From contig NZ_AP027043.1 in NCBI RefSeq assembly GCF_027924665.1, positions 3,286,001 through 3,350,000 on the forward strand: a stretch of DNA of 64,000 nt, read 5' to 3'. The translations under genes were made by a program, and so were the position numbers. Shown in pieces: positions 1,435 to 45,556 of this stretch. How positions within the stretch are numbered: position 1 is the stretch's first letter; the number at the start of each line of letters is the position of its first letter. This DNA is from Flavobacterium sp. GSB-24. Lineage in GTDB: Bacteria > Bacteroidota > Bacteroidia > Flavobacteriales > Flavobacteriaceae. The notes below the pieces were generated by a model. That model was not told the DNA's origin. It saw only the letters and a program-made list of their open reading frames with translations, and did not search any database.

Positions 1435-2028
1435 ATGAATACAAATTCAACTGCAGTAGCCTCAAGTTTTCTTAATGATTTGAAAACAAAGACTGCTGAC
1501 TCACATAAAAAATTAGAAGAACTTCCTGTTTCCATGTCAATTATGTCATCAGATATGAAAATTGAGGAATATGCTAAATATCTAAATTTAATGCATGATG
1601 TTCATGCTGATACTGAACAAACGGTTTACCCATTATTTTCTGGACTTTTAGGTGATTTGGAACAAAGAAGAAAAAAACAACTTATTGAGGCTGATCTTGC
1701 TTTTCTAAACTATGATTTGAGTAACTCTGAGAAAGTTTTTAAAACTGAAAACATTTCAGTTCCTTTTGCTCTTGGAATTTTTTATGTGGTTGAAGGTTCT
1801 ACGCTTGGCGGTAGATTTATTTTAAAAAATGTTTCACAAGTACCGCAACTTTCTGGAGATAAGGGTGTTTCTTATTTTAATGGTTACGGAGATAAAACAG
1901 GAAGTTTTTGGAAATCTTTCCTCAACTTTCTATCAGAATACGAACAACAGAATAATTGTGGAGATGCTATAATAGAAGGAGCTGTATTTGCTTTTGATAG
2001 TATTTATAATCACTTTGAGAGCAGATAA
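1435..2028 (+). CDS. bphO: Biliverdin-producing heme oxygenase
   Basis: A 197-residue cytoplasmic protein of the heme oxygenase family, which opens heme to biliverdin IXa, the chromophore of bacteriophytochromes. The proximal heme ligand is probably His24 in the context DSHKKLE. The distal-helix signature YVVEGSTLGG is present around residue 115. Length fits bacterial single-domain enzymes. The stop is separated from the next ATG by only 4 nt, so it is cotranscribed with the bacteriophytochrome and most likely supplies its pigment. Heme degradation for iron recovery is an alternative role but less likely in this context. Confidence 0.92.
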   Translation: MNTNSTAVASSFLNDLKTKTADSHKKLEELPVSMSIMSSDMKIEEYAKYLNLMHDVHADTEQTVYPLFSGLLGDLEQRRKKQLIEADLAFLNYDLSNSEKVFKTENISVPFALGIFYVVEGSTLGGRFILKNVSQVPQLSGDKGVSYFNGYGDKTGSFWKSFLNFLSEYEQQNNCGDAIIEGAVFAFDSIYNHFESR

Positions 2029-2032
2029 AAGA

Positions 2033-4309
2033 ATGAAGATTAAAGATATAGTTAATCGGGATATTGTTACGTTGACCAATTGTGAGCATGAACCGATACA
2101 TATACCAGGTAAAATTCAGCCTCACGGTTTTTTAATTGGCGTTACTTCCAATTGGAAAATAGATTTTTGTACAGAGAATATTGCTGCATATTTAAATTTA
2201 CTTCATACTGAGGTATTAGGAAAAGACTTTAAAAGTGTTTTTGGTACCGAAGCAGAAAAACAGCTGTTAGAGTATATCAATGAAGATAAAATTCAAGATG
2301 TTTTTCCGCTCGAAATAAGCCTTTTAGGAAAATTATTTCAAATTAGTATCCACAAAAGTTATGATATTTATGTTTTAGAAGCTGAACCACAGTTTCCAGA
2401 TAAAGAAAAATTGGCGGACGTCTACACACAAACGATTCAGTTTGTAACGCAGATGAACAACACCAAGTCACTTAAAGATCTGTGTGCATTAGTGGCTCAG
2501 GGAACACGTGAAATTACAGGTTACGATCGTGTAATGATTTATCGTTTTGATGAAGAATATAATGGGGAAGTCTTTGCCGAAAGCTGCAGGGAAGACCTAG
2601 AACCTTTTTTAGGACTCCATTATCCACATACCGATATTCCAGCTCAGGCAAGGGAATTGTATATTAAAAATCAGCTGAGATTAATTGTTGATATTAATTA
2701 TGAGCCAGTTCCAATCTACACGGTAGATGATAAAGAAAATAAAAATCTTGATTTAAGTCTTTCGATATTAAGAAGTACGTCGCCAATTCACGTAGAATAT
2801 TTAAAAAATATGGGCGTTGGTGCAACATTAACAATTTCGCTTATCCATCATGACAGATTGTGGGGATTAATTGCCTGCCATCATTATTCAGAAAAAAATA
2901 TTTCACCCGAAATTAGACTTGCTGCAAAACTTCAAGGACAATTTATTACCTCACAAATCGATATACGCCAATCTAATGATGAGAATATAAATGCTCACAA
3001 ATCAATTTTAGCGTTGGAGCAATTAACAAGTATTGATCTTCCGATTAAACAAGAATCATTAGAAATAATTAGTGAGGCACCGCAATTACTAGAACTTTGT
3101 AATGCAGCTGGTGTTTCTATTATATCTAGAGGAAAAATCTATAAAAGTGGAATAGTTCCTTCTGATGAACAAATTACGGAGCTGATTGAAGGTATAAATG
3201 CTAAGTTTTCCAACGAAATATTTACCACTCACAAAATCAGCGATGATTTCCCGGAACTAGCTCAAAATTCAAATTTTGCTGGAATTATCTATCATTCTCT
3301 TGGAAATAATGATCACATAATTTGGTACAGACCCGAAACTATTTCTGAAATTAATTGGGGTGGTGATCCTGAAAAAAGCATTGTTAAAGACAGCAACGGA
3401 CTTCATCCTAGAAATTCATTCAATATCTGGAAACAGATTGTCAAAAATAAAAGCAGTGTGTGGAAGCAGTATGAAATTAATGCTGCTATTCAATATGCAC
3501 ACGCCTTGCACAATCAGCTTATTTTGATTATGTTGAGTGAAGAAGAGGAAAAATATCGCAGTCAAAGCGAAATATTAAAAGAAACAAATTCAGAACTCGA
3601 AAATATTAACTGGATCAGTACGCATGATTTGCAGGAACCATTGCGTAAAATTCAGCTTATAACCTCAAAAATGTTATCTGAATTGGATGTTATTTCAACC
3701 GATTCAATTTCAAATTCCCTACAACGTGTTTCGAAATCTGCCAATAGAATGAGCGGTTTATTGGAAGATATTTTAAAATATACCCGAATAAAAAACACCA
3801 GGGATACTCTTCATGAAGTAGATTTAAATGAAATTTTAGAATCTACAATTAAAGAAATGTCTGAAGTACTTTTAGAAAGTAATGCAGTAATTGAGTCTGA
3901 AAATCTTCCAAAAATTCATGCTATTGGATTTTTAATGAGACAATTATTTATTAATATTCTTCAGAATTCATTAAAATACGCTTCAGTTGAAAGACAGCCA
4001 AAAATTAAAATAACAGCTTCTCAAGAACCTGTAATCATACATGACAAGTATAAAGTGTATTGTCATTGGGTCCGATTTTCTGATAACGGAATTGGTTTTG
4101 AGCAAAAATATGCCGAATCTATTTTTAAGGTTTTTACAAGACTTCATACTCAGGAACATTATACTGGCTCAGGTGTTGGTCTGGCATTATGTAAAAAAAT
4201 CATGCAGGCCGTTGGAGGTGATATTCATGCAGAAGGAAAACCTGGCGAAGGAACTGATATAGTTATTTATTTTCCATGTGACCCAGAAGATACACTTTTA
4301 CCTATATAA
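2033..4309 (+). CDS. bphP: Bacteriophytochrome sensor histidine kinase
   Basis: A 758-residue cytoplasmic red/far-red photoreceptor kinase. The ATG at 2033 is chosen because it puts the chromophore Cys at residue 17 (LTNCEHEPIHIPGKIQPHG), the usual N-terminal position for biliverdin attachment in BphPs. A longer frame would overlap bphO. Order: PAS about 15-115, GAF about 135-300 with PHTDIPAQAR (the PASDIP-type chromophore-pocket motif), PHY about 310-500, HisKA with phospho-acceptor His531 in STHDLQEPLRK, then a GHKL ATPase ending with the GSGVGLALCKK box. No response regulator follows in the operon, so the output partner must lie elsewhere. It is translationally close-coupled to bphO. Confidence 0.94.
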   Translation: MKIKDIVNRDIVTLTNCEHEPIHIPGKIQPHGFLIGVTSNWKIDFCTENIAAYLNLLHTEVLGKDFKSVFGTEAEKQLLEYINEDKIQDVFPLEISLLGKLFQISIHKSYDIYVLEAEPQFPDKEKLADVYTQTIQFVTQMNNTKSLKDLCALVAQGTREITGYDRVMIYRFDEEYNGEVFAESCREDLEPFLGLHYPHTDIPAQARELYIKNQLRLIVDINYEPVPIYTVDDKENKNLDLSLSILRSTSPIHVEYLKNMGVGATLTISLIHHDRLWGLIACHHYSEKNISPEIRLAAKLQGQFITSQIDIRQSNDENINAHKSILALEQLTSIDLPIKQESLEIISEAPQLLELCNAAGVSIISRGKIYKSGIVPSDEQITELIEGINAKFSNEIFTTHKISDDFPELAQNSNFAGIIYHSLGNNDHIIWYRPETISEINWGGDPEKSIVKDSNGLHPRNSFNIWKQIVKNKSSVWKQYEINAAIQYAHALHNQLILIMLSEEEEKYRSQSEILKETNSELENINWISTHDLQEPLRKIQLITSKMLSELDVISTDSISNSLQRVSKSANRMSGLLEDILKYTRIKNTRDTLHEVDLNEILESTIKEMSEVLLESNAVIESENLPKIHAIGFLMRQLFINILQNSLKYASVERQPKIKITASQEPVIIHDKYKVYCHWVRFSDNGIGFEQKYAESIFKVFTRLHTQEHYTGSGVGLALCKKIMQAVGGDIHAEGKPGEGTDIVIYFPCDPEDTLLPI

Positions 4310-36786: not shown

Positions 36787-36957
36787 AAAAGACCTAAGAC
36801 GAATTAGTTACATAATAATTGTAATTTGTTATCAAATTATCACATAACGTTCTTTTAATCAATAGTTTTATGTAAACTAAATCGCAATATTTTTATCCTC
36901 AAAATTAATTTAGATTATAAAAAACACTTTTAGTTAAAATAAATACAAAATAGTATG

Positions 36958-36965
36958 TATTTTTG
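36958..36965 (+). promoter_or_regulatory. -7 element TATTTTTG for the copper cluster
   Basis: TATTTTTG lies 25 nt before the TTG start of the first cluster gene. A clear -33 TTG is absent. Confidence 0.5.
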
Positions 36966-36989: not shown

Positions 36990-37358
36990 TTGAAAAGGGT
37001 AATTATAATAGCACTTTCGATTTTAATCTTATCGCCATCATTTGGCGGCTTGTTCGTATATGCTTCATTTAAAATCAATCAGAAAGAAATAGCTAAAACA
37101 ATTTGTGTACAGCGTAAACTGGCATTTAATAGTTGTAATGGCCGATGCGAACTTCAAAAAAGCATCAAAAAATACTCTGATAACGAAAGAAAAATGCAGG
37201 ACAGCCTAAAAGACAAATTAGAGCTAATTTACGTTCAAAGCTCTCCAGAAATTAGCTTTGACATTGTTCCCGTTATTGAATCAAAAGAAAATACTTCTAC
37301 TTTATTCGAAAAGAAACCAATTTCGGCTTCTAATCTTACTTTTCACCCTCCAGTCTAG
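36990..37358 (+). CDS. Small secreted Cys-motif protein, copper-cluster paralogue 1
   Basis: A 122-residue protein starting at TTG; an in-frame TAG at 36975 and the absence of an ATG leave no other start. One N-terminal hydrophobic helix (3-26) serves as signal or anchor, then Cys39, Cys49 and Cys53 in CVQRKLAFNSCNGRC. The Lys-rich middle and the ending FHPPV recur in the paralogue at 40589, whose three Cys sit at the same residue numbers. Placement beside a copper receptor suggests metal binding or delivery in the periplasm. The function is not known to me. Confidence 0.78.
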   Translation: MKRVIIIALSILILSPSFGGLFVYASFKINQKEIAKTICVQRKLAFNSCNGRCELQKSIKKYSDNERKMQDSLKDKLELIYVQSSPEISFDIVPVIESKENTSTLFEKKPISASNLTFHPPV

Positions 37359-37675
37359 TTAACTAGATCAATATTTCAGTTTTAATTTTGTTTAGAAATT
37401 ATATCATTATTCATATTTAATGATATAAAACACTTGTGGTAGTATTTTTCATATGATATGAATTTACAATTGAGTTTTTAACGTACACGTACATCTGCAA
37501 ATATTATTTTCTACAGAAATCATTGATCTCTATTCAATAATTGAATAAATATACCCTGAAATGTATTATTTCAATTAAAAAACACATTCAAACTTCACAG
37601 CACTTCCGCTTTTTTGATTTTCGAAATCTGACTGCTTTATGCTGTGTTTTAAACAGTTTTCTAACATTCATTACA
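37359..37675. other. Intergenic leader before the copper-cluster lipoprotein
   Basis: No gene is apparent in 317 bases. An ATATCATTA / TAATGATAT hairpin (37401-37426) without a T tract is present, and GTACACGTAC lies near 37483. An in-frame extension of the next gene into this region encodes no signal peptide and was not accepted. Confidence 0.5.
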
Positions 37676-38599
37676 ATGAAATCTTTTAAATTTTTAGTCA
37701 TTGCACTATTGTGTGTAATTACTTCCTGTACAATCGATAAAACAGATTACGAAGCTGAAATAGGTTCTCAAGTTCCAGAATATTATGAATTTAAAGAAGC
37801 GGTTTCATTAACCAGCGGTCTTTATAAAATAAGTATTGAAGCTTTAAACGGAACATTTTATAAAGGGTATAATGAACTTCATTTGAAAATTACAAATACG
37901 CAGACCAATCAAAATGTAAGCGCATCTGAAGTAACTTTTTTACCAATCATGAGCAATACAGACGGAAGCAAAATGTCATGTCCGCATGAGTATAATCTGC
38001 AATACGATATGGCTAATAAATATTTCGCTGGATATTCTGTATTTACAAGTGAAAGCGCCGCAGCAAACAGCTGGAAATTGTATGTGAGTTTTACTGCCGA
38101 TAATCAGAAATATGAAGTGAATAAAGATATTTCGGTTGAAAAGCAAAGTAATAAAAACCTCAATATGACCACTTTTACAGGAAAAGATAACGAGCAATAT
38201 GTGATTGCATTAGTTTCGCCGCAAAAACCTACCGTTTCTGAAAATAAATTAGTCGCAGGTATTTACAAATACAATAAACCGGCTAATGCAGGTGGAACTT
38301 TTCCAGATCCTTCGCAATTTTCTTATTCAGAAGTGACTGGTTATACTTTAAAATTAGATCCAAGAATGCCAGAGCCTTCAATGGGAAATCATTCTTCGCC
38401 CAATAATCAGGATTTGACACAGCAAAATGATGGTTTATATCACGGAGTTGTGAATTATACGATGACGGGAAACTGGACTTTGAATTTAATAATGATGAAT
38501 CAAAATGGGTTGATCATAAAAGGAACTGTGGTTCCTACAGATTTTACGCCTGGAGTTGAAGGCGTGAAAAGTGAACTTTATATTGATACATTATTTTAA
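37676..38599 (+). CDS. Lipoprotein with two FixH/YtkA-like copper domains
   Basis: A 307-residue lipoprotein. The ATG at 37676 is chosen because it yields a short signal peptide with lipobox VITSC (Cys18); an earlier ATG would add 45 residues that do not look like a signal. Two Ig-like YtkA/FixH-type domains follow. The first (about 35-150) carries Met92, Met100 and the MSCPH group (to His104). The second (about 190-295) carries Met231, Met236 and His239 in DPRMPEPSMGNHSSPNN, a pattern typical of that fold and suited to Cu(I) binding. It sits 4 nt before the TonB receptor ATG. Confidence 0.82.
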   Translation: MKSFKFLVIALLCVITSCTIDKTDYEAEIGSQVPEYYEFKEAVSLTSGLYKISIEALNGTFYKGYNELHLKITNTQTNQNVSASEVTFLPIMSNTDGSKMSCPHEYNLQYDMANKYFAGYSVFTSESAAANSWKLYVSFTADNQKYEVNKDISVEKQSNKNLNMTTFTGKDNEQYVIALVSPQKPTVSENKLVAGIYKYNKPANAGGTFPDPSQFSYSEVTGYTLKLDPRMPEPSMGNHSSPNNQDLTQQNDGLYHGVVNYTMTGNWTLNLIMMNQNGLIIKGTVVPTDFTPGVEGVKSELYIDTLF

Positions 38600-38603
38600 A
38601 AAC

Positions 38604-40583
38604 ATGAAATATATAGTAATGTTACTTTTTTTAGGAATGTCTGTAACTGCTCAAAATGTGCACGTTCATCACGACAGCATAAAAAACTTAGAAGAAGTAC
38701 AAGTAAAAAACGCAGCCAAAAAGAAAATCGAGACCGAAATGAAAATGGCGGTTTCAGTTGACGAATTTTTGTCATCATCAGATAATATTAGTTTTATAAA
38801 ACGTGGGGCTTACGCGTGGGAACCGCTGCTCAATAATATGAGTTCCGAACGTTCTACCGTTACAATTGACGGAATGCACGTTTTTGGAGCTTGTACGGAT
38901 AAAATGGACCCAATAACGTCTTATGTAGAGAGTAATAATCTTTCTACCATTGACATAAAATCAGGGCAGGAAGGAAGCCTACACGGTGCAACTGTTGCGG
39001 GAAGTATAGATTTAAAAAGAAAAAGCACTCCTTTTGGTCTCGCTAAAAAGTGGAATGGAGTCTACCAAAGCGGATTCGAATTTAATAACAAACAGTTTTT
39101 TAATCTTGGAAATGTGGCTTATTCTGGAGAAAAATTTGTGGCAGAAGGAAGCATCTCTTATCGAAAAGCTGATGATTATTATGATGGAAATAATGATGAA
39201 GTCAAACATTCACAATATAAAAAATTCAACACCTCATTAGGTTTTGCTTATAAAACAACTGATTTATCCTCAGTAAGATTGGATGCGATTTTTGATATGG
39301 CAAAAGATGTTGGATATCCAGCGCTGCCAATGGATTTATCGCTTTCGCGTGCTCTTATCACATCGGCTTCTTATAAGCAATTATTTGAAGAAGGTTTAAT
39401 AAAAGTTGTAGATACAAAGATTTATTTCAACGCAATCGAGCATTATATGGATGACACCACTCGTCCAGAAAATCTAGTTCATATGGATATGCCGGGATGG
39501 AGCACGACTTATGGTCTGGTTTCTAAAGCCAATGCAAAAAAAGGTAGTTATTCTTCTGAAATACAGTTGAATGCCTACGATAATTTATCAATTGCAGAAA
39601 TGCGAATGTATCCGCAGGATCGAAGCAAAAGAACCATGTTTGCGTACAGCTGGCCGTGGGTAACAACTCGTTATGCAGGACTTTCGATGAATAATTCTTG
39701 GGATCTATCAGAGAAAAGCCAGGTAAATTTAGGAGGTTCTTTAGGCGTAAATTACAATTATTCCAAATATGTAGAATTCAACTGGATTTTTCATCCTGGA
39801 GCGCCTCAGGAAAAAACAAGATTCCTGCCTAGTTTACATGCAGGTTATAATCTGGATGTTGATCATTTTAATTTTTCTGTAGGAACAGGTTACGGACATC
39901 GAGCGCCTTCTGTTTCTGAAGGTTACGGTTACTATATCTACAATAGTTTTGACCGTTACGATTATATCGGAAATCCTAATTTGAAAAATGAGATTTCATA
40001 CGAAGGAAATGCAAGTGCAGGTTTTAAAAACGAAAGGTTAAGTATTCAAGGAAAAATAAATTACTTCTACATTGAAAATTACATCATTGGAAGGATTTTA
40101 AGCATGGGAAGTCCGATGAATTATCAGTCCGTTGGAGTAAAAGGTTATACTTCTTTAGACAATGCAACGCTTTTAAATATGTCCATGAATGCCAGTTATG
40201 ATATTTTACCGCATCTGCATTGGAAAGGAACGCTGACTTACGCACGCGGAATGGATGATAAAGGAGAAAATCTGCCTTTTATTCGTCCGTTGAGTTATCA
40301 GACTTCACTTCATTTTATGCATAAAAATTTCGGAATTCAAACTTCTGTAAATGGTGATTTTGAGCAGATTAATTACAGCCCGGAATACGGAGAAGACTTG
40401 ACATCTGCGTACACAATCTGGAATATTTCTGCCGATTATTCTTTTAAAATCAATAAAGTAAAAAGCGTTGTGCAGGTTGGAGCAGAAAATTTATTAAATG
40501 AATATTATAGCACTTATGCAGACTGGGGAAATATTCCGAGAATGGGGCGTAATGTTTTTACCTCTTTAAAATTCAATTTCTAA
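38604..40583 (+). CDS. OprC/NosA-type TonB-dependent copper receptor
   Basis: A 659-residue outer-membrane receptor: signal peptide (1-16, TAQ), plug domain about 25-140, then a 22-strand barrel ending in an aromatic residue (LKFNF). It lacks the N-terminal carboxypeptidase-like domain of SusC proteins. The copper ligands known from Pseudomonas OprC, CxxxM and HxM, appear as Cys97-x3-Met101 (GACTDKMDP) and His280-x-Met282 (EHYMDD). It therefore most likely imports copper. The ATG at 38604 follows the lipoprotein stop by 4 nt. Confidence 0.88.
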   Translation: MKYIVMLLFLGMSVTAQNVHVHHDSIKNLEEVQVKNAAKKKIETEMKMAVSVDEFLSSSDNISFIKRGAYAWEPLLNNMSSERSTVTIDGMHVFGACTDKMDPITSYVESNNLSTIDIKSGQEGSLHGATVAGSIDLKRKSTPFGLAKKWNGVYQSGFEFNNKQFFNLGNVAYSGEKFVAEGSISYRKADDYYDGNNDEVKHSQYKKFNTSLGFAYKTTDLSSVRLDAIFDMAKDVGYPALPMDLSLSRALITSASYKQLFEEGLIKVVDTKIYFNAIEHYMDDTTRPENLVHMDMPGWSTTYGLVSKANAKKGSYSSEIQLNAYDNLSIAEMRMYPQDRSKRTMFAYSWPWVTTRYAGLSMNNSWDLSEKSQVNLGGSLGVNYNYSKYVEFNWIFHPGAPQEKTRFLPSLHAGYNLDVDHFNFSVGTGYGHRAPSVSEGYGYYIYNSFDRYDYIGNPNLKNEISYEGNASAGFKNERLSIQGKINYFYIENYIIGRILSMGSPMNYQSVGVKGYTSLDNATLLNMSMNASYDILPHLHWKGTLTYARGMDDKGENLPFIRPLSYQTSLHFMHKNFGIQTSVNGDFEQINYSPEYGEDLTSAYTIWNISADYSFKINKVKSVVQVGAENLLNEYYSTYADWGNIPRMGRNVFTSLKFNF

Positions 40584-40588
40584 TAAAA

Positions 40589-40966
40589 ATGAAAAAAGTT
40601 TTTAGTTTCACAATGACAATGCTGTTTCTGCTGGTTTCTTTCCAGCAGGCATTGATTATTGTGCATTTTAAACTCAATCAGAAGAATATTGAACAAGAGT
40701 TTTGCGTCAACAAAGCCAAACCAGAATTACAATGTCACGGTAAATGTCATTTAAAGAAAGAATTAGAAAAATCAGAAAACACCGATTTAGAACTTACCAG
40801 TATCGGTAAGAAAATCGATATCACTTTAATATCTAATTTCCAATTTGCAGTCCCTGTTTTAAAACCTATAAATTCTAATGAGATATTGACTTATAAAGAA
40901 TTGGATTTAGTTGAGCCTTGTCTTGAAATTTTTGTACCGCCGCCTATTTTATTTGGTATTACCTAA
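40589..40966 (+). CDS. Small secreted Cys-motif protein, copper-cluster paralogue 2
   Basis: A 125-residue protein 5 nt after the receptor stop. A hydrophobic N-terminal helix (4-26), then Cys39, Cys49 and Cys53 in CVNKAKPELQCHGKC, followed by His54. It ends with VPPPILFGIT. It shares the HFKLNQKNI/ASFKINQKEI block and the exact Cys positions with the protein at 36990. Likely a periplasmic or membrane-anchored copper-site protein, by context only. Confidence 0.8.
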   Translation: MKKVFSFTMTMLFLLVSFQQALIIVHFKLNQKNIEQEFCVNKAKPELQCHGKCHLKKELEKSENTDLELTSIGKKIDITLISNFQFAVPVLKPINSNEILTYKELDLVEPCLEIFVPPPILFGIT

Positions 40967-41007
40967 TCTCATTAATAATAGAAATACAAAAATTAAATTA
41001 AAAAGAA

Positions 41008-41874
41008 ATGCAAAATTTTAAAAAATACTTATTATTATCAATCGCTTCATTGGCATTTGTATCGTGTTCAAGTGATGATGATAATCCTGTTGCAAACAAT
41101 GTAACGTTAGAATTCAATAACACTTTTAAGAATACGACTATTGTTTTAGGTGCTGCAACTTCAACTTCTGCAACGACAAATACTTCTGCGGCTGGGCAGG
41201 TACATCATTTTTCAGAATTAAAATATGTGATTAGTAATATCCGTCTTGTAAAAGATAATGGAGATGAAGTTCCATATAATGTAAATGATTTGGATAAAGG
41301 CGCAACAGTTATCGATCAATCAAAAACGGCAACATTAAATTATGTTTTGAGTAATGTGCCATCTGCAACTTATAAGCAGATTAAATTTGGTTTGGGTATT
41401 AAGCCAGAACAAAACACTTTAGACCAAGCAAGATTTCCAAATTTCTATGCTGCAGCTGGCGCTAACGATACCGCAATGATGTGGGAATGGGGAAGCGGCT
41501 ACCGTTTTACAAAAGTAGAAGGCTTTTATGATACTGATAATAAAACAATGTCTATTCACACAGGAAGTACTGTACAGGGAACTGCAGGCAGTTATACGCA
41601 AGGTGTAAATGCTTATAGAGATATTACTTTAAACTTGACAACAAATGCAGTTGTTGGAAGCAAAGCTCCGAAAATCAAAATTAAAGCTGATTTTGATAAA
41701 ATGTTAAGCGGAAAAACAAATACAATTACGCTATCTACTGGAACAGGAGATGCCGACAACGCAACTCCAAATATTCATACAGCTGCTCAAATGGTAAAAT
41801 TTGTTGATAATTTCGGAGGAAATGGTTCAAGCGATATTACAGGAATGTTTTCTGTTACAGGTGTAGAAAACTAA
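41008..41874 (+). CDS. MbnP-like copper-binding lipoprotein
   Basis: A 288-residue lipoprotein with lipobox AFVSC (Cys20). It matches the MbnP family: LEFNNTFKN near the start, HHFSELKYVISNIRLV (66-81), IKFGLGI (125-131) and MMWEWGSGYRFTKVEG (157-172). In methanotroph MbnP a Trp is converted to kynurenine by the partner MbnH and forms a Cu(I) site. Trp159 and Trp161 are the candidates here. Next gene is the di-heme partner, as expected. Confidence 0.85.
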   Translation: MQNFKKYLLLSIASLAFVSCSSDDDNPVANNVTLEFNNTFKNTTIVLGAATSTSATTNTSAAGQVHHFSELKYVISNIRLVKDNGDEVPYNVNDLDKGATVIDQSKTATLNYVLSNVPSATYKQIKFGLGIKPEQNTLDQARFPNFYAAAGANDTAMMWEWGSGYRFTKVEGFYDTDNKTMSIHTGSTVQGTAGSYTQGVNAYRDITLNLTTNAVVGSKAPKIKIKADFDKMLSGKTNTITLSTGTGDADNATPNIHTAAQMVKFVDNFGGNGSSDITGMFSVTGVEN

Positions 41875-41885
41875 AATCATATTTT

Positions 41886-41923
41886 CAGAACCGTCTTAAT
41901 TTAAGAATTGGCGGTTCTGTTTT
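41886..41923 (+). terminator. Hairpin between mbnP-like and mbnH-like genes
   Basis: The CAGAACCG (41886-41893) / CGGTTCTG (41912-41919) stem encloses a smaller TCTTAA/TTAAGA hairpin and is followed by TTTT. It probably reduces read-through from the lipoprotein gene into the peroxidase gene. Confidence 0.6.
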
Positions 41924-41935
41924 AAATTATTTATA

Positions 41936-42952
41936 ATGAAAAAAATAGCCGGCTTCATATCTCTATTATTATTGTTTGCGTCATGTAACAGCGATGATTC
42001 GGATATGATTTCTATTGATAATCCTGAAATTTCGCTGAATATTCCGTCTGGATTTCCAGAACTAAATAGTTTTGTAAGTCTAAACAAGCCGACTAAATAC
42101 GGTGTGGAATTAGGTGAAAAGCTTTTCTCAGAAAAAAAATTCAGCGCAGATAATACCATTTCCTGCTCAAGTTGTCATATTCAAGCAAATGCTTTTACAG
42201 ACCAGCATGCACAAGCAGTTGGAATTGAAGGCAGAATTGGACTTCGCAATACGCCATCCATTCAAAATTTGGCTTTTATGAAATTTTACAATTGGGATGG
42301 AAGTAAACTGCAGCTGGAAACGCAAACGTTAGTGCCTATTATAACGCACGAAGAAATGGATTCCTCTATTTTAGAAGTTATAGGTAAAATTAAAGATGAT
42401 GCCGTTTATAAAGATTTGTTCCAAAAAGCCTTTGGAGATGAGAGTATTACTCCTGAAAGGATCTATAAAAGTATTGCACAATTTGAATACACTTTAATTT
42501 CTGCTAACAGCAAATATGATAAAGTAAAACGAAATACGGCATCTTTTACAGAAAGCGAATTGCAGGGTTATCAAACCTTTCAGCAAAAATGCGCGAGTTG
42601 TCACAGTTCAGAATTGTTTACAGATCAGAGTTTTAGAAATATTGGTTTTCCTTTAAACACCGACACCAATGAAGCAGGGCGTGGCAGGGTTACTGGAATT
42701 GCTGCTGATTTTATGAGTTTTCGTGTGCCGACGTTAAGAAATATAGAATATACAGCTCCTTATGGAAGTTTTGGACAATTTGCAACTTTAGAATCTGTTT
42801 TGGATTATTTTGATAGTGGAGTGTTAGATGCAGAAAATTTAGATCCAATTTTTAAAGAAAATGGCAAACGAATTCCGCTTACAGAACAAGAAAAAATCAA
42901 TCTTATCGCTTTTATGAAAACCTTAAGTGATACTGATTTTGTTAAGAACTAA
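41936..42952 (+). CDS. Di-heme cytochrome c peroxidase, MbnH-like
   Basis: A 338-residue lipoprotein (lipobox LFASC, Cys17) of the bacterial di-heme peroxidase/MauG superfamily. Heme sites are Cys77-x2-Cys80-His81 (CSSCH) and Cys219-x2-Cys222-His223 (CASCH). Next to an MbnP-like gene it most likely acts as MbnH, oxidising a Trp of MbnP to kynurenine to build a copper site. A plain H2O2-reducing peroxidase is the alternative. Periplasmic, lipid-anchored. Confidence 0.87.
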   Translation: MKKIAGFISLLLLFASCNSDDSDMISIDNPEISLNIPSGFPELNSFVSLNKPTKYGVELGEKLFSEKKFSADNTISCSSCHIQANAFTDQHAQAVGIEGRIGLRNTPSIQNLAFMKFYNWDGSKLQLETQTLVPIITHEEMDSSILEVIGKIKDDAVYKDLFQKAFGDESITPERIYKSIAQFEYTLISANSKYDKVKRNTASFTESELQGYQTFQQKCASCHSSELFTDQSFRNIGFPLNTDTNEAGRGRVTGIAADFMSFRVPTLRNIEYTAPYGSFGQFATLESVLDYFDSGVLDAENLDPIFKENGKRIPLTEQEKINLIAFMKTLSDTDFVKN

Positions 42953-43172: not shown

Positions 43173-43535
43173 ATGATAAAATTAGCCAAAAGAGAAGAAC
43201 AGATCATGCAGGTTTTTTGGGATCTGAATAAAGCCTTTATAAGAGATATTATTCCATTGCTGCCAGATCCAAAGCCACATTACAATAGTGTAGCCACAAT
43301 TGTGAAGATACTTGCAGAAAAAGGATTTTTGAATTATGAAACTGCTGGAAATATGCATTGCTTTTTTCCAATAATCAGCAGGGAAGAATACCAGCAATTT
43401 GCTTTAAAGGATATCGTAAGTCAGTATTTTGATAATTCGTATCCGAGAATGCTAGCCTTTTTTGCAAAAGAACAAAAGCTTTCAGAAAAGGAGTTGGATG
43501 AAATCGTCAGCATCATTAAAAAAGAAAAAATATGA
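43173..43535 (+). CDS. BlaI/MecI-family transcriptional repressor
   Basis: A 120-residue winged-helix repressor: REEQIMQVFWDLNKAFIRDI, PKPHYNSVATIVKILAEKGF (recognition helix with Tyr/Asn/Ser) and a C-terminal dimerisation helix. BlaI proteins are cleaved when the cognate BlaR1 sensor is activated. Its TGA overlaps the ATG of the M56 gene by 4 nt, indicating translational coupling. It should bind the palindromes at 43092-43148. Confidence 0.93.
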   Translation: MIKLAKREEQIMQVFWDLNKAFIRDIIPLLPDPKPHYNSVATIVKILAEKGFLNYETAGNMHCFFPIISREEYQQFALKDIVSQYFDNSYPRMLAFFAKEQKLSEKELDEIVSIIKKEKI

Positions 43536-45556
43536 TACCTTATATTTTATATACAGCACTTATTCTTTCGGCTTGCTTTGCGTTTTACAAACTGCTTTTG
43601 CAAAAAGAAACTTTTTTTCATTTAAACAGATATATACTGTTGTCTTGTATGGTACTGGCTTTTATTCTGCCATTAGTTCCAGTTCCTCAGCAATTGTCTT
43701 TTAGAAAAATTGATGCCGAAAAGAACATTACACTTGTCAAAGCTCCAGTTGAAAATCTTACTTCAACAGCAGTAAAAGAGCCTACAGTTCAGCCAACACT
43801 TACAGAACAGACAAAACAAGTAATCAATGTTGATGTCTTATTAAAGTGTTTGGTGTATTTGTACTGGTTTGGAGTCGTAATATTTGGACTTAATTTTTTA
43901 ATGCAGGCTGTTATATTACTATTTAGGGCCAATTCTAAATCGGTTATTCAAGATGGTAAATTTCGTATTGTGGAAATAACAGGAGATAAAGCTCCGTGCT
44001 CTTTCGGCAATAATATTTTTATTAATCCTGAAAAATACGAATGGGAAACCTACAGCCAGATTTTGCTTCATGAAAAAATTCATATCGAACAGAAACACAC
44101 TATCGATCTGCTGCTTGCCGAGATTGTGCTGATCTTTCAATGGTTTAATCCTTTTGCTTGGCAATGGAGAAAAGCCCTAGAGACCAATCTAGAATTTTTA
44201 ACAGACGATCAAATGCTGCAACAAGATAACGTTGAAAAAGAAAGTTATCAGTTCAGCTTACTGCAGGTTGCTGCGCCGCAATTTCCATTGAGTCTTACAA
44301 CCAATTATAATCAATCATTATTAAAAAAACGAATCATCATGATGAACTCAAAAAAATCAAATGTGCACACCACTTGGAAATATTTTTTCCTAGTGCCGCT
44401 AATGGTGCTTTTTGCCTGCCTTTTTAATCAACCGGCAGCGCAAAGTCAAACCCTAAATTCTAAAGGGGAAGCACAAAAAGAAACAGCCATTCAAAACGGA
44501 ATGAAAACAGACGGAAACTGGTTTGCTACCATTAAAGGCAATTCTATAGAAATCAATTTTAAAAGTGATGAGAATAATTCTTCCAGTACTTTTCAATTGA
44601 GTGAAATCAGTAATCTTCCAAAAGACAAACAAGGAGAATTTACATTGACGCGTGAAGCAGGAACGATGTATTTTACAGGAAAATTTGAAGGAGACAGAGG
44701 AATGGGAACTTATAAATTTACTGCAAACAAAGATTACAGCACAGCAATGCGCAAAGAAGGAGTAGAGCTTGCAAATGACAATGATCTTTTGGTTTTCTTT
44801 ATGATAAACGTGAAAGTGTCTTACGTACAGATGCTTAAGAAAAATGGTTATACCGATTTAGACAAAGATCAAGTTATTCCCCTAGCGGCTTTAGATGTAA
44901 ATGAAGCTTATATTACTTCTATAAAAAAAGCAATTCCAGAGATTGATCTAGACAATCTTGTTCCTTTCAAATCATTAGGAATAGATAAAGCTTTTATTGA
45001 AGAAATACGCAGTTCTGGGTATAAGGATGTTAGTCCAGGTAATATTATTGCATTAAAATCGCAGGGAATTGATGCCAAATATATTAGTGATTTTCGCTCT
45101 GCTAAAAATAATAACGATAGCAATGATAAAGAAGTTAGCAGCAATAATAATGACAACGATAATAGCGACGATGATATTATTGCATTTAAAGCATTAAATA
45201 TTGACAAAGCATATGTTGATTCTTTTAAAAAGCTGGGATATAAAAATATCTCAAACAGTGATCTTATTGGTATGAAATCACTGAATGTAACTCCAGAGTA
45301 CGTAAAAAGTTTTCAGAATGCTGGTTTTCAAAACATAGAGGCAGAAAATTTGATCGCTTTGAAATCACAAGATATAACGCCAGATTTGGTAAAAGAATAT
45401 AAAAGTCTTGGTTTTGAAGATCTAAATTTAGAAGATATCGTTGGAGCAAAAGCAACAGGCACCACACCATCTTATATCAAATCAATGAAAGCAAAAGGCC
45501 ATAATTTTAAAAGCCTAGACCGATATGTTGCATTGAAAGCTCTTGCTAATAATTAA
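43532..45556 (+). CDS. BlaR1-like M56 metallopeptidase with 29-residue repeats
   Basis: A 674-residue membrane sensor-protease. Helices at the N-terminus flank an M56 domain with zinc motif His180-Glu-x2-His184 (LLHEKIHIEQKH), and a further membrane helix is near residue 290 (FFLVPLMVLFACLF). The extracytoplasmic part is not a penicillin-binding domain. Instead it has an adhesin-like segment (about 330-430) and eight repeats of 29 residues from about 431 to 671, such as YVKSFQNAGFQNIEAENLIA, one interrupted by an Asn/Asp/Ser-rich insert. The inducing signal is probably not a beta-lactam. No lactamase gene is adjacent. Confidence 0.9.
   Translation: MIPYILYTALILSACFAFYKLLLQKETFFHLNRYILLSCMVLAFILPLVPVPQQLSFRKIDAEKNITLVKAPVENLTSTAVKEPTVQPTLTEQTKQVINVDVLLKCLVYLYWFGVVIFGLNFLMQAVILLFRANSKSVIQDGKFRIVEITGDKAPCSFGNNIFINPEKYEWETYSQILLHEKIHIEQKHTIDLLLAEIVLIFQWFNPFAWQWRKALETNLEFLTDDQMLQQDNVEKESYQFSLLQVAAPQFPLSLTTNYNQSLLKKRIIMMNSKKSNVHTTWKYFFLVPLMVLFACLFNQPAAQSQTLNSKGEAQKETAIQNGMKTDGNWFATIKGNSIEINFKSDENNSSSTFQLSEISNLPKDKQGEFTLTREAGTMYFTGKFEGDRGMGTYKFTANKDYSTAMRKEGVELANDNDLLVFFMINVKVSYVQMLKKNGYTDLDKDQVIPLAALDVNEAYITSIKKAIPEIDLDNLVPFKSLGIDKAFIEEIRSSGYKDVSPGNIIALKSQGIDAKYISDFRSAKNNNDSNDKEVSSNNNDNDNSDDDIIAFKALNIDKAYVDSFKKLGYKNISNSDLIGMKSLNVTPEYVKSFQNAGFQNIEAENLIALKSQDITPDLVKEYKSLGFEDLNLEDIVGAKATGTTPSYIKSMKAKGHNFKSLDRYVALKALANN

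Follow-up and report, generated by a model that had tools for sequence, protein, structure and literature searches.

Gene Content of the Locus

A 64,000-nucleotide (nt) stretch of Flavobacterium sp. GSB-24 (contig NZ_AP027043.1, positions 3,286,001 to 3,350,000 of the forward strand), referred to as a whole as the window, carries a run of six open reading frames (ORFs) that an earlier note on this DNA had described as a possible copper acquisition and handover pathway. All six lie on the + strand between positions 36990 and 42952, with no other genes in between, as that note had it. The first, Cys-A (36990..37358), is a small Cys-motif ORF of 122 amino acids (aa) with a TTG start; it is followed by an intergenic stretch (37359..37675, + strand) and by the gene for a YtkA-like lipoprotein (37676..38599), for which ATG 37676 is a likelier start than 37541. 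Then come the gene for an OprC-like TonB-dependent receptor (38604..40583; residues are counted from its likely start, ATG 38604), Cys-B (40589..40966; 125 aa), which is a second member of the Cys-A family, and the genes for an MbnP-family protein (41008..41874) and an MbnH-like di-heme enzyme of the MauG family (41936..42952). With these starts, the successive gaps are 317 nt between Cys-A and the lipoprotein gene, 4 nt between the lipoprotein and receptor genes, 5 nt between the receptor gene and Cys-B, 41 nt between Cys-B and the MbnP gene, and 61 nt between the MbnP and MbnH genes. Here and below, gaps and neighbors derive from simple gene calling that takes the first ATG, GTG, or TTG. The nearest named record was that of Flavobacterium sp. 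Root935, for which the receptor identity is listed as 100%.

When the receptor was compared with the Protein Data Bank (PDB), OprC entries were the only matches (PDB 6FOK, E 3.9e-11, about 45 bits). The two ligand pairs that the earlier note had pointed out, C97/M101 (CxxxM) and H280/M282 (HxM), were present and aligned onto the OprC copper site described in PMC8610252. All four ligands were retained in 117/117 receptors, i.e., the window's own and its relatives scoring >300 bits by phmmer, and Met91, 243, 294, 296, 333, 335, 345, and 505 were likewise invariant in this set. Against the TonB-copper model TIGR01778, the receptor scored 83.3 bits, and since this is far under the equivalog cutoff of 472.45, we use the label OprC-like and not OprC. 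A heme/transferrin-type model gave 93 bits, also under its cutoff, and this higher score is what favors an alternative in which the receptor cargo is heme or another metal and the cluster is unrelated to copper. Against that alternative stand the full CxxxM–HxM site together with the eight invariant Met, the restriction of PDB matches to OprC, and the company the receptor keeps, namely MbnP/MbnH here and SCO1 at the related loci described below; we regard it as very improbable.

The lipoprotein had been called FixH-like, with Met/His sites. Its assignment to FixH was rejected (PF05751, E 0.1, 13.1 bits against a gathering score of 23) in favor of YtkA (PF13115, E 1.1e-8, 36 bits against a cutoff of 25.9). 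The Met/His part of the description held up: M231, M236, and H239, along with C102 and P103, are among the positions conserved in ≥85% of 118 sequences. We consider the lipoprotein a candidate copper-binding partner of the receptor.

The MbnP-family protein reached 122.4 bits against PF20243 (E 2.7e-35; gathering score 27) and 64.8 bits against TIGR04052, below the equivalog cutoff of 140. W159 and W161, which form a WxW motif, and H184 were invariant across 32 MbnP sequences, while the C-terminal HVH present in many other MbnPs is missing from the clade of the window protein. An MbnP profile matched PDB 7L6G, a "metallo-mystery pair system" protein that we take to be MbnP, at E 7e-6 and with the WxW and HxG motifs aligned. 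The MbnH-like enzyme (PF03150, E 3e-49) has a CCP_MauG domain, two CxxCH heme motifs, and MbnP as its neighbor; C77-C80-H81 and C219-C222-H223 were retained in at least 95% of 105 sequences. The best NCBIfam model for this enzyme was that of the MbnH family (TIGR04039), ahead of MauG, with 206.8 bits against a cutoff of 362.85. Its best PDB match was a bacterial di-heme peroxidase (1IQC, E 2.2e-38), followed by 6E1C (E 3.3e-34), a di-heme enzyme that is presumably MbnH. CorA binds copper through a kynurenine formed from Trp, a pair of His, and a water molecule (PMC3912023), and by analogy, a Trp-derived kynurenine copper site may be present in the window MbnP. No MbnB-family (PF05114) match was obtained in the genome, in agreement with the proposal that the cluster works independently of methanobactin.

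Conservation of the Gene Set in Relatives

Relatives came from two sources: a scan of named genomes, in which the best 80 of 207 relatives were kept and certain organisms are present twice, and a family draw of 149 genomes, 71 of them with a match, from which the 34 strong ones (the window's own genome excluded) were fetched with flanks. Together, these gave 114 loci, 87 with a close receptor (at least 62% identity) and 27 with a receptor of 36 to 45% identity. The named loci include Flavobacterium, Winogradskyella, Chryseobacterium, Sphingobacterium, and Parapedobacter, among others.

At 87/87 close-receptor loci, the lipoprotein gene adjoined the receptor gene on its upstream side, and the MbnP and MbnH genes, themselves adjoining, lay downstream on the same strand. 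Scattering of the genes in relatives, which the earlier note had named in advance as an outcome that would speak against it, was looked for and not seen. A Cys ORF was found upstream of the receptor in 85 of the 87, the two exceptions (L070 and L105) being loci whose contig breaks off within 1.1 kb of the receptor on that side, and the motif rule recovered a second Cys ORF before MbnP in 47/87. When the receptor was distant, a Cys ORF was again found upstream (27/27) and the lipoprotein adjoined the receptor on either side (27/27), and MbnP/MbnH behind the receptor were found in 0/27. From these distant-locus counts, the Cys ORF and the lipoprotein accompany the receptor, and MbnPH is an extra module belonging to a single receptor clade.

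That the locus is a conserved Bacteroidota copper-import operon is well supported. What stands of the copper pathway in the earlier note is a conserved import gene set with OprC-type ligands and MbnP/MbnH; what is not supported as stated is the role of the Cys proteins, which look like leader ORFs controlling the genes behind them and not like handover steps, and the handover chain between the proteins is hypothetical.

A further observation concerns Flavobacterium fluviatile, in which the Cys-B copy of one locus (L065, 11985–12197) is broken early and has no Pro-Pro end, with the MbnP and MbnH frames still behind it; a second receptor locus (L038) is present in this species.

Upstream of Cys-A, an alignment of 34 Flavobacterium regions brought out a putative operon promoter region (36934..36965, + strand), an A/T-rich block ending in the element TAnnTTTG (36958–36965), which we take to be a promoter consensus. 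Its six fixed positions were kept in 32 to 34 of the 34 sequences. A dyad, AAATAC...GTATTT (36941–36962), was considered as an operator and rejected as not conserved, with one of its bases kept in 11/34 and another in 22/34.

Sequence Features of the Cys-A/Cys-B Family

The two Cys-motif proteins, named in the earlier note without interpretation, are the most interesting part of the cluster. Neither matched any Pfam or NCBIfam family above cutoff. Both carry the motif C-x9-C-x-G-x-C-x-L at a set distance from a proline pair or triplet near the C terminus: in Cys-A, the motif and a terminal FHPPV are 66 residues apart, with one residue after the PP, and in Cys-B, the distance to the end FVPPPILFGIT is 63 residues, with six residues after the PPP. 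Judged by eye, Cys-A and the family have a hydrophobic N terminus. Translation of Cys-A starts with TTG in 33/34 Flavobacterium sequences.

Searching the 114 loci for the motif yielded 163 family members, one 70-residue frame (in L065) being left out. In 163/163 members, PP or PPP preceded the stop by 1 to 12 residues, and the first Pro lay 62 to 71 residues from the last motif Cys; the commonest end contexts were FHPP, FVPP, and FRPP. Across 53 diverse members, invariant columns were confined to the motif, where they comprise three Cys, one Gly, and one Leu, and to two Pro close to the C terminus; the stretch between motif and PP was variable even inside one genus. Variable codon positions 1/2/3 numbered 52/36/107 of 123 for Cys-A (32 sequences) and 61/46/105 of 119 for Cys-B (26 sequences). 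With third codon positions varying most, both frames are under protein-level selection.

These features could also be read as those of stable copper chaperones or redox partners, anchored in the membrane and working in trans next to the receptor and MbnP, with the Pro-Pro tail as a structural element. The hydrophobic N terminus and the three invariant Cys would suit such proteins, as would purifying selection on the frame and the occurrence of two copies in the one operon here, each adjoining metal proteins. A folded partner would, however, be expected to show invariant or near-invariant columns between the Cys motif and PP, where there are none and yet the length is held at 62 to 71 residues. 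The placement of PP close to the stop in every member and the long gaps behind the ORF (below) further argue against chaperones, which we consider unlikely.

Distribution and Neighbors of the Family

Returning to the leader reading of Cys-A and Cys-B, we asked how the family is distributed irrespective of the receptor. A family profile matched 157/395 Bacteroidota genomes, in 68/170 genera, and a protein search returned 3,867 clusters with E-values no higher than 1e-5. Among the best 120 of these, none had a Pfam domain, and all were named hypothetical or uncharacterized protein except one, a "5-methylthioribose kinase." Sixty loci were then fetched by their leader ORF, chosen from the listed profile matches, with one to three taken from each genus sampled and the window's genus excluded; unlisted matches, many of which come from one family (f18) with weak E-values, are not part of this sample.

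All 62 family ORFs in the 60 loci had PP, at a spacing of 61 to 72 residues. As a control for bias toward PP, we used ORFs whose profile match excluded the PP columns. Eleven listed matches covered the front of the profile only, of which one (L218) was within the 60 and ten were fetched separately. All nine complete ORFs among the ten had PP, at 62 to 73 residues, in one case 17 residues from the stop, and the tenth ORF ends at the contig end. The background was low, with PP in the last 14 residues of 10/382 other ORFs of 90 to 190 residues. The gene following the leader was on the same strand in 60/60 cases, compared to 221/295 for other adjacent pairs, and leaders were separated from that gene by a longer gap (median 107.5 nt, n = 60) than the gene from its own successor (median 21.5 nt, n = 50; p 1.1e-7). 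An opposite-strand gene preceded 15/59 leaders.

An OprC-type receptor, a receptor with an NHN plug motif, or MbnP/MbnH was present in 47/60 loci. By Pfam, the 60 next genes included 27 with a TonB-receptor plug, 10 MbnP, 4 YtkA, 2 MauG-type, and 1 SCO1, and the 50 second genes included 10 MauG-type, 4 PepSY_TM, and 3 SCO1. Among 38 neighbors of 560 to 900 residues, 21 had the full CxxxM–HxM site, one had Gly in place of Cys, 11 had the NHN plug motif, and 5 were other proteins. For one NHN receptor (L198), the best PDB matches were 9RVQ/9RVX (E 8.4e-14), which are CrtA of Bordetella pertussis, with the colicin I receptor close (1e-12). Of nine genes scanned behind the 11 NHN receptors, four were PepSY_TM and the other five encoded a BNR-repeat protein, with a single one of the latter just under cutoff. 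The Cys-A/Cys-B family probably represents phylum-wide copper-sensing leader ORFs.

Several arrangements within the family deserve mention in their own right. A leader, an NHN-type receptor, and a BNR-repeat protein stand in a row at L192, L196, L197, L208, and L216, forming a recurring set, and a tandem leader pair precedes a single NHN-type receptor at L217 (genome G391). By eye, leaders precede SCO1-like and PCuAC-like frames at L226 and L227, and a leader row at L219 includes an oxidase subunit I-like frame. Three further family ORFs, located elsewhere (L073, 14746–15123; L107, 14640–15023; L118, 6608–6988), are all followed by the same kind of frame, which is regulator-like (AraC-like by eye).

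A Proposed Mechanism and Its Difficulties

The reading that we favor, as somewhat more likely than not, is that the window holds a copper-import operon of OprC–MbnPH type controlled by two copper sensors, which would be the nascent chains of the leader ORFs. It starts from the gene order, conservation, motifs, spacing, and position observed above; the ribosome stall, the binding of copper, the sense of regulation, the oxidation of Trp, and any transfer between proteins that it invokes are modeled on CruR, OprC, and MopE/CorA-type proteins. The operon would consist of two modules, the lipoprotein with the OprC-type receptor and MbnP with MbnH, each preceded by one leader ORF, such that Cys-A would serve as leader of the whole operon and Cys-B as leader of the MbnP/MbnH half. 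The leader would be synthesized at the membrane, and its Pro-Pro or Pro-Pro-Pro would slow the ribosome once the Cys motif, 66 (Cys-A) or 63 (Cys-B) residues upstream, has left the tunnel. Under copper scarcity, ribosomes stalled in this way would keep the downstream genes on, and copper bound to the Cys motif would release the stall and turn them off. This low-copper-on sense is taken from CruR, and the uptake-gene setting suits it. The receptor would then import copper via its CxxxM–HxM site, MbnH would oxidize a Trp of MbnP to generate a copper site, and the second leader before MbnP would allow the MbnP/MbnH half to respond separately.

A number of results weigh against this interpretation. 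The motif rule did not detect Cys-B in 40/87 close loci, although at least one of these (L060) has a CysB-like frame, and Cys-B in the window, lying so close behind the receptor gene, is not first in its operon. In the receptor-independent sample, 13/59 leaders sit <60 nt behind a same-strand gene, and therefore not every leader starts an operon. None of the three gene types (OprC-type receptor, NHN receptor, and MbnP/MbnH) was detected in 13/60 loci. At E 1e-5, the next-gene receptors matched heme, B12, and siderophore NCBIfam models (27, 25, and 24) more often than the copper model (17), these models being overlapping ones; the SusC/RagA model matched 12 next genes at the same threshold. Folding of the leader gaps (mean z −2.07, n = 50) did not differ from that of control gaps (−1.88, n = 62; p 0.28). 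Finally, RAPP or RGPP was found in 0/163 and 0/62 family members, and in the published accounts on which we draw, the cores with tested arrest are RAPP/RGPP. We do not claim an intergenic RNA switch, since folding is not different from that of the controls and the 317-nt gap behind Cys-A is poorly conserved across Flavobacterium.

In broader terms, Bacteroidota might own a widespread family of copper-sensing arrest peptides with a non-RAPP Pro-Pro core and no recognizable relation to DUF2946, which would head CruR-like operons (OprC-type, CrtA-like with PepSY_TM, and MbnPH) by convergence or undetectable homology, and of which two serial members here would set the receptor and MbnPH separately. 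We hold this wider proposition to be evenly balanced. Copper acquisition and the sensing of copper lack are poorly known in Gram-negative bacteria. If true, the proposition would fill the Bacteroidota gap in a survey of RAPP/RGPP leaders (PMC12992588), give the copper-import operons of a large phylum a simple tag at the sequence level, and mean that Pro-Pro arrest cores besides RAPP can serve metal sensing. At this locus, moreover, MbnP/MbnH stand in the context of copper import, in a genome with no detectable gene for methanobactin.

Other Features of the Window

Behind the cluster, a BlaI/M56 pair occupies window positions 43173–45556, with a repeated motif in the tail of the M56 protein. 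It was rejected as a component of the system, as it follows the cluster at L032 and L033 only, among the loci listed. Elsewhere, at 1435–4309, a small heme-oxygenase-like ORF is followed by a phytochrome-like kinase ORF, both labeled by eye.

Comparison with Known Systems

The earlier note regarded the gene set as not described as one system, a statement that has to be qualified. No description of the window gene order in Bacteroidota was found in searches confined to open-licence papers. The CruR paper (PMC9426467), however, does report operons headed by copper leaders that contain OprC-type receptors, PepSY_TM, and MbnPH-like genes, mostly in Proteobacteria.

According to the same paper, the CruR operon of Bordetella pertussis is on at low copper, and copper relieves the arrest, upon which Rho ends transcription. 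The window leaders resemble CruR/DUF2946 in that a small ORF with a Cys motif and a PP shortly before the stop heads a copper-receptor operon, with a fixed Cys–PP spacing, a long gap behind the ORF, and similar neighbors. The upstream position and the Cys motif at fixed spacing to a C-terminal PP were found, and the PF11162 match and the C-terminal RAPP were not. In contrast to CruR, the motif is C-x(n)-C-x-G-x-C, the spacing is 62 to 71 residues as opposed to 45 (PMC9426467), the contexts are mostly F[HRK]PP, FVPPP, or TPPP and never RAPP, the hosts are Bacteroidota, and a second copy is possible inside the operon. The 18 families listed at E up to 1 for the 53 diverse members do not include DUF2946 (PF11162), and homology to DUF2946/CruR found no support in these members.

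DUF2946 itself is rare in Bacteroidota, occurring in 5/198 genomes, two of them above cutoff, and a search seeded with one such ORF from this phylum returned two proteins. The rare small ORFs of this kind (L236 to L239) are His-rich and end in RGPP or RAPP, and at L236 and L239, they are followed by frames that look receptor-like by eye. They are possibly a second kind of metal leader ORF in Bacteroidota.

CutF-like proteins, typified by Rhodobacter CutF (PMC9973294), share with the window family their size, a Cys motif, PP within the 15 C-terminal residues, and a same-strand neighbor within 1000 nt. Both Cys-A and Cys-B pass the filters used for them (<150 aa, PP in the last 15 residues, and a same-strand gene within 1000 nt), with gaps of 317 and 41 nt; the N-terminal signal peptide that is also part of this definition may correspond to the hydrophobic N terminus seen by eye. 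The CutF-like survey, published in 2023, comprised 5,334 proteins, 19% of which come from Bacteroidota, in 29 clusters (PMC9973294), and may already contain the Cys-A/Cys-B family. It is a serious possibility, though we would put it somewhat short of even, that the leader is real and simply one of these published clusters, with novelty limited to the operon context. The agreement with the length, PP, and neighbor filters speaks for this; on the other side, MbnP has no occurrence in the main text of that paper, and the 53 members gave no DUF2946 match and a single match to the CzcI-like NCBIfam model (E 0.0077), too weak to be used. CutF also responds to copper in the sense opposite to that of CruR, raising CutO output with copper present, via a stem-loop (PMC9973294), and the window family has no such structure signal.

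Whether or not the leaders belong to a CutF-like cluster, the copper-sensor reading of the family can be set beside other leader surveys. The 2025 survey of RAPP/RGPP leaders reports copper-related leaders in various lineages, with Bacteroidota named among the exceptions, and receptor-related leaders across Gram-negative bacteria in general (PMC12992588). Upstream of sec genes, Bacteroidota have been described as carrying candidate arrest peptides with a Pro at their end (PMC10987492). With the CrtA–PepSY_TM operons (PMC12914433), the family has in common that it also heads NHN receptors (11 loci), one of which has CrtA as its best PDB match, and that PepSY_TM follows in 4/9. Unlike those operons, a BNR-repeat protein instead stands behind 5/9 NHN receptors, and the window receptor is not of the NHN type.

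The MbnP/MbnH half is comparable to MbnP/MbnH of methanotrophs, MopE, and CorA/CorB in that a PF20243 protein with WxW stands beside a MauG-like di-heme enzyme. Unlike the methanotroph pair, the window pair falls under the TIGR cutoffs and belongs to a clade without the C-terminal HVH, in a genome without a PF05114 match. The receptor, for its part, is like OprC of Pseudomonas aeruginosa (PMC8610252) in its CxxxM–HxM site and invariant Met set, and differs from it in scoring about 45 bits in the PDB comparison, in falling under the TIGR01778 cutoff, and in being paired with a YtkA-like lipoprotein.

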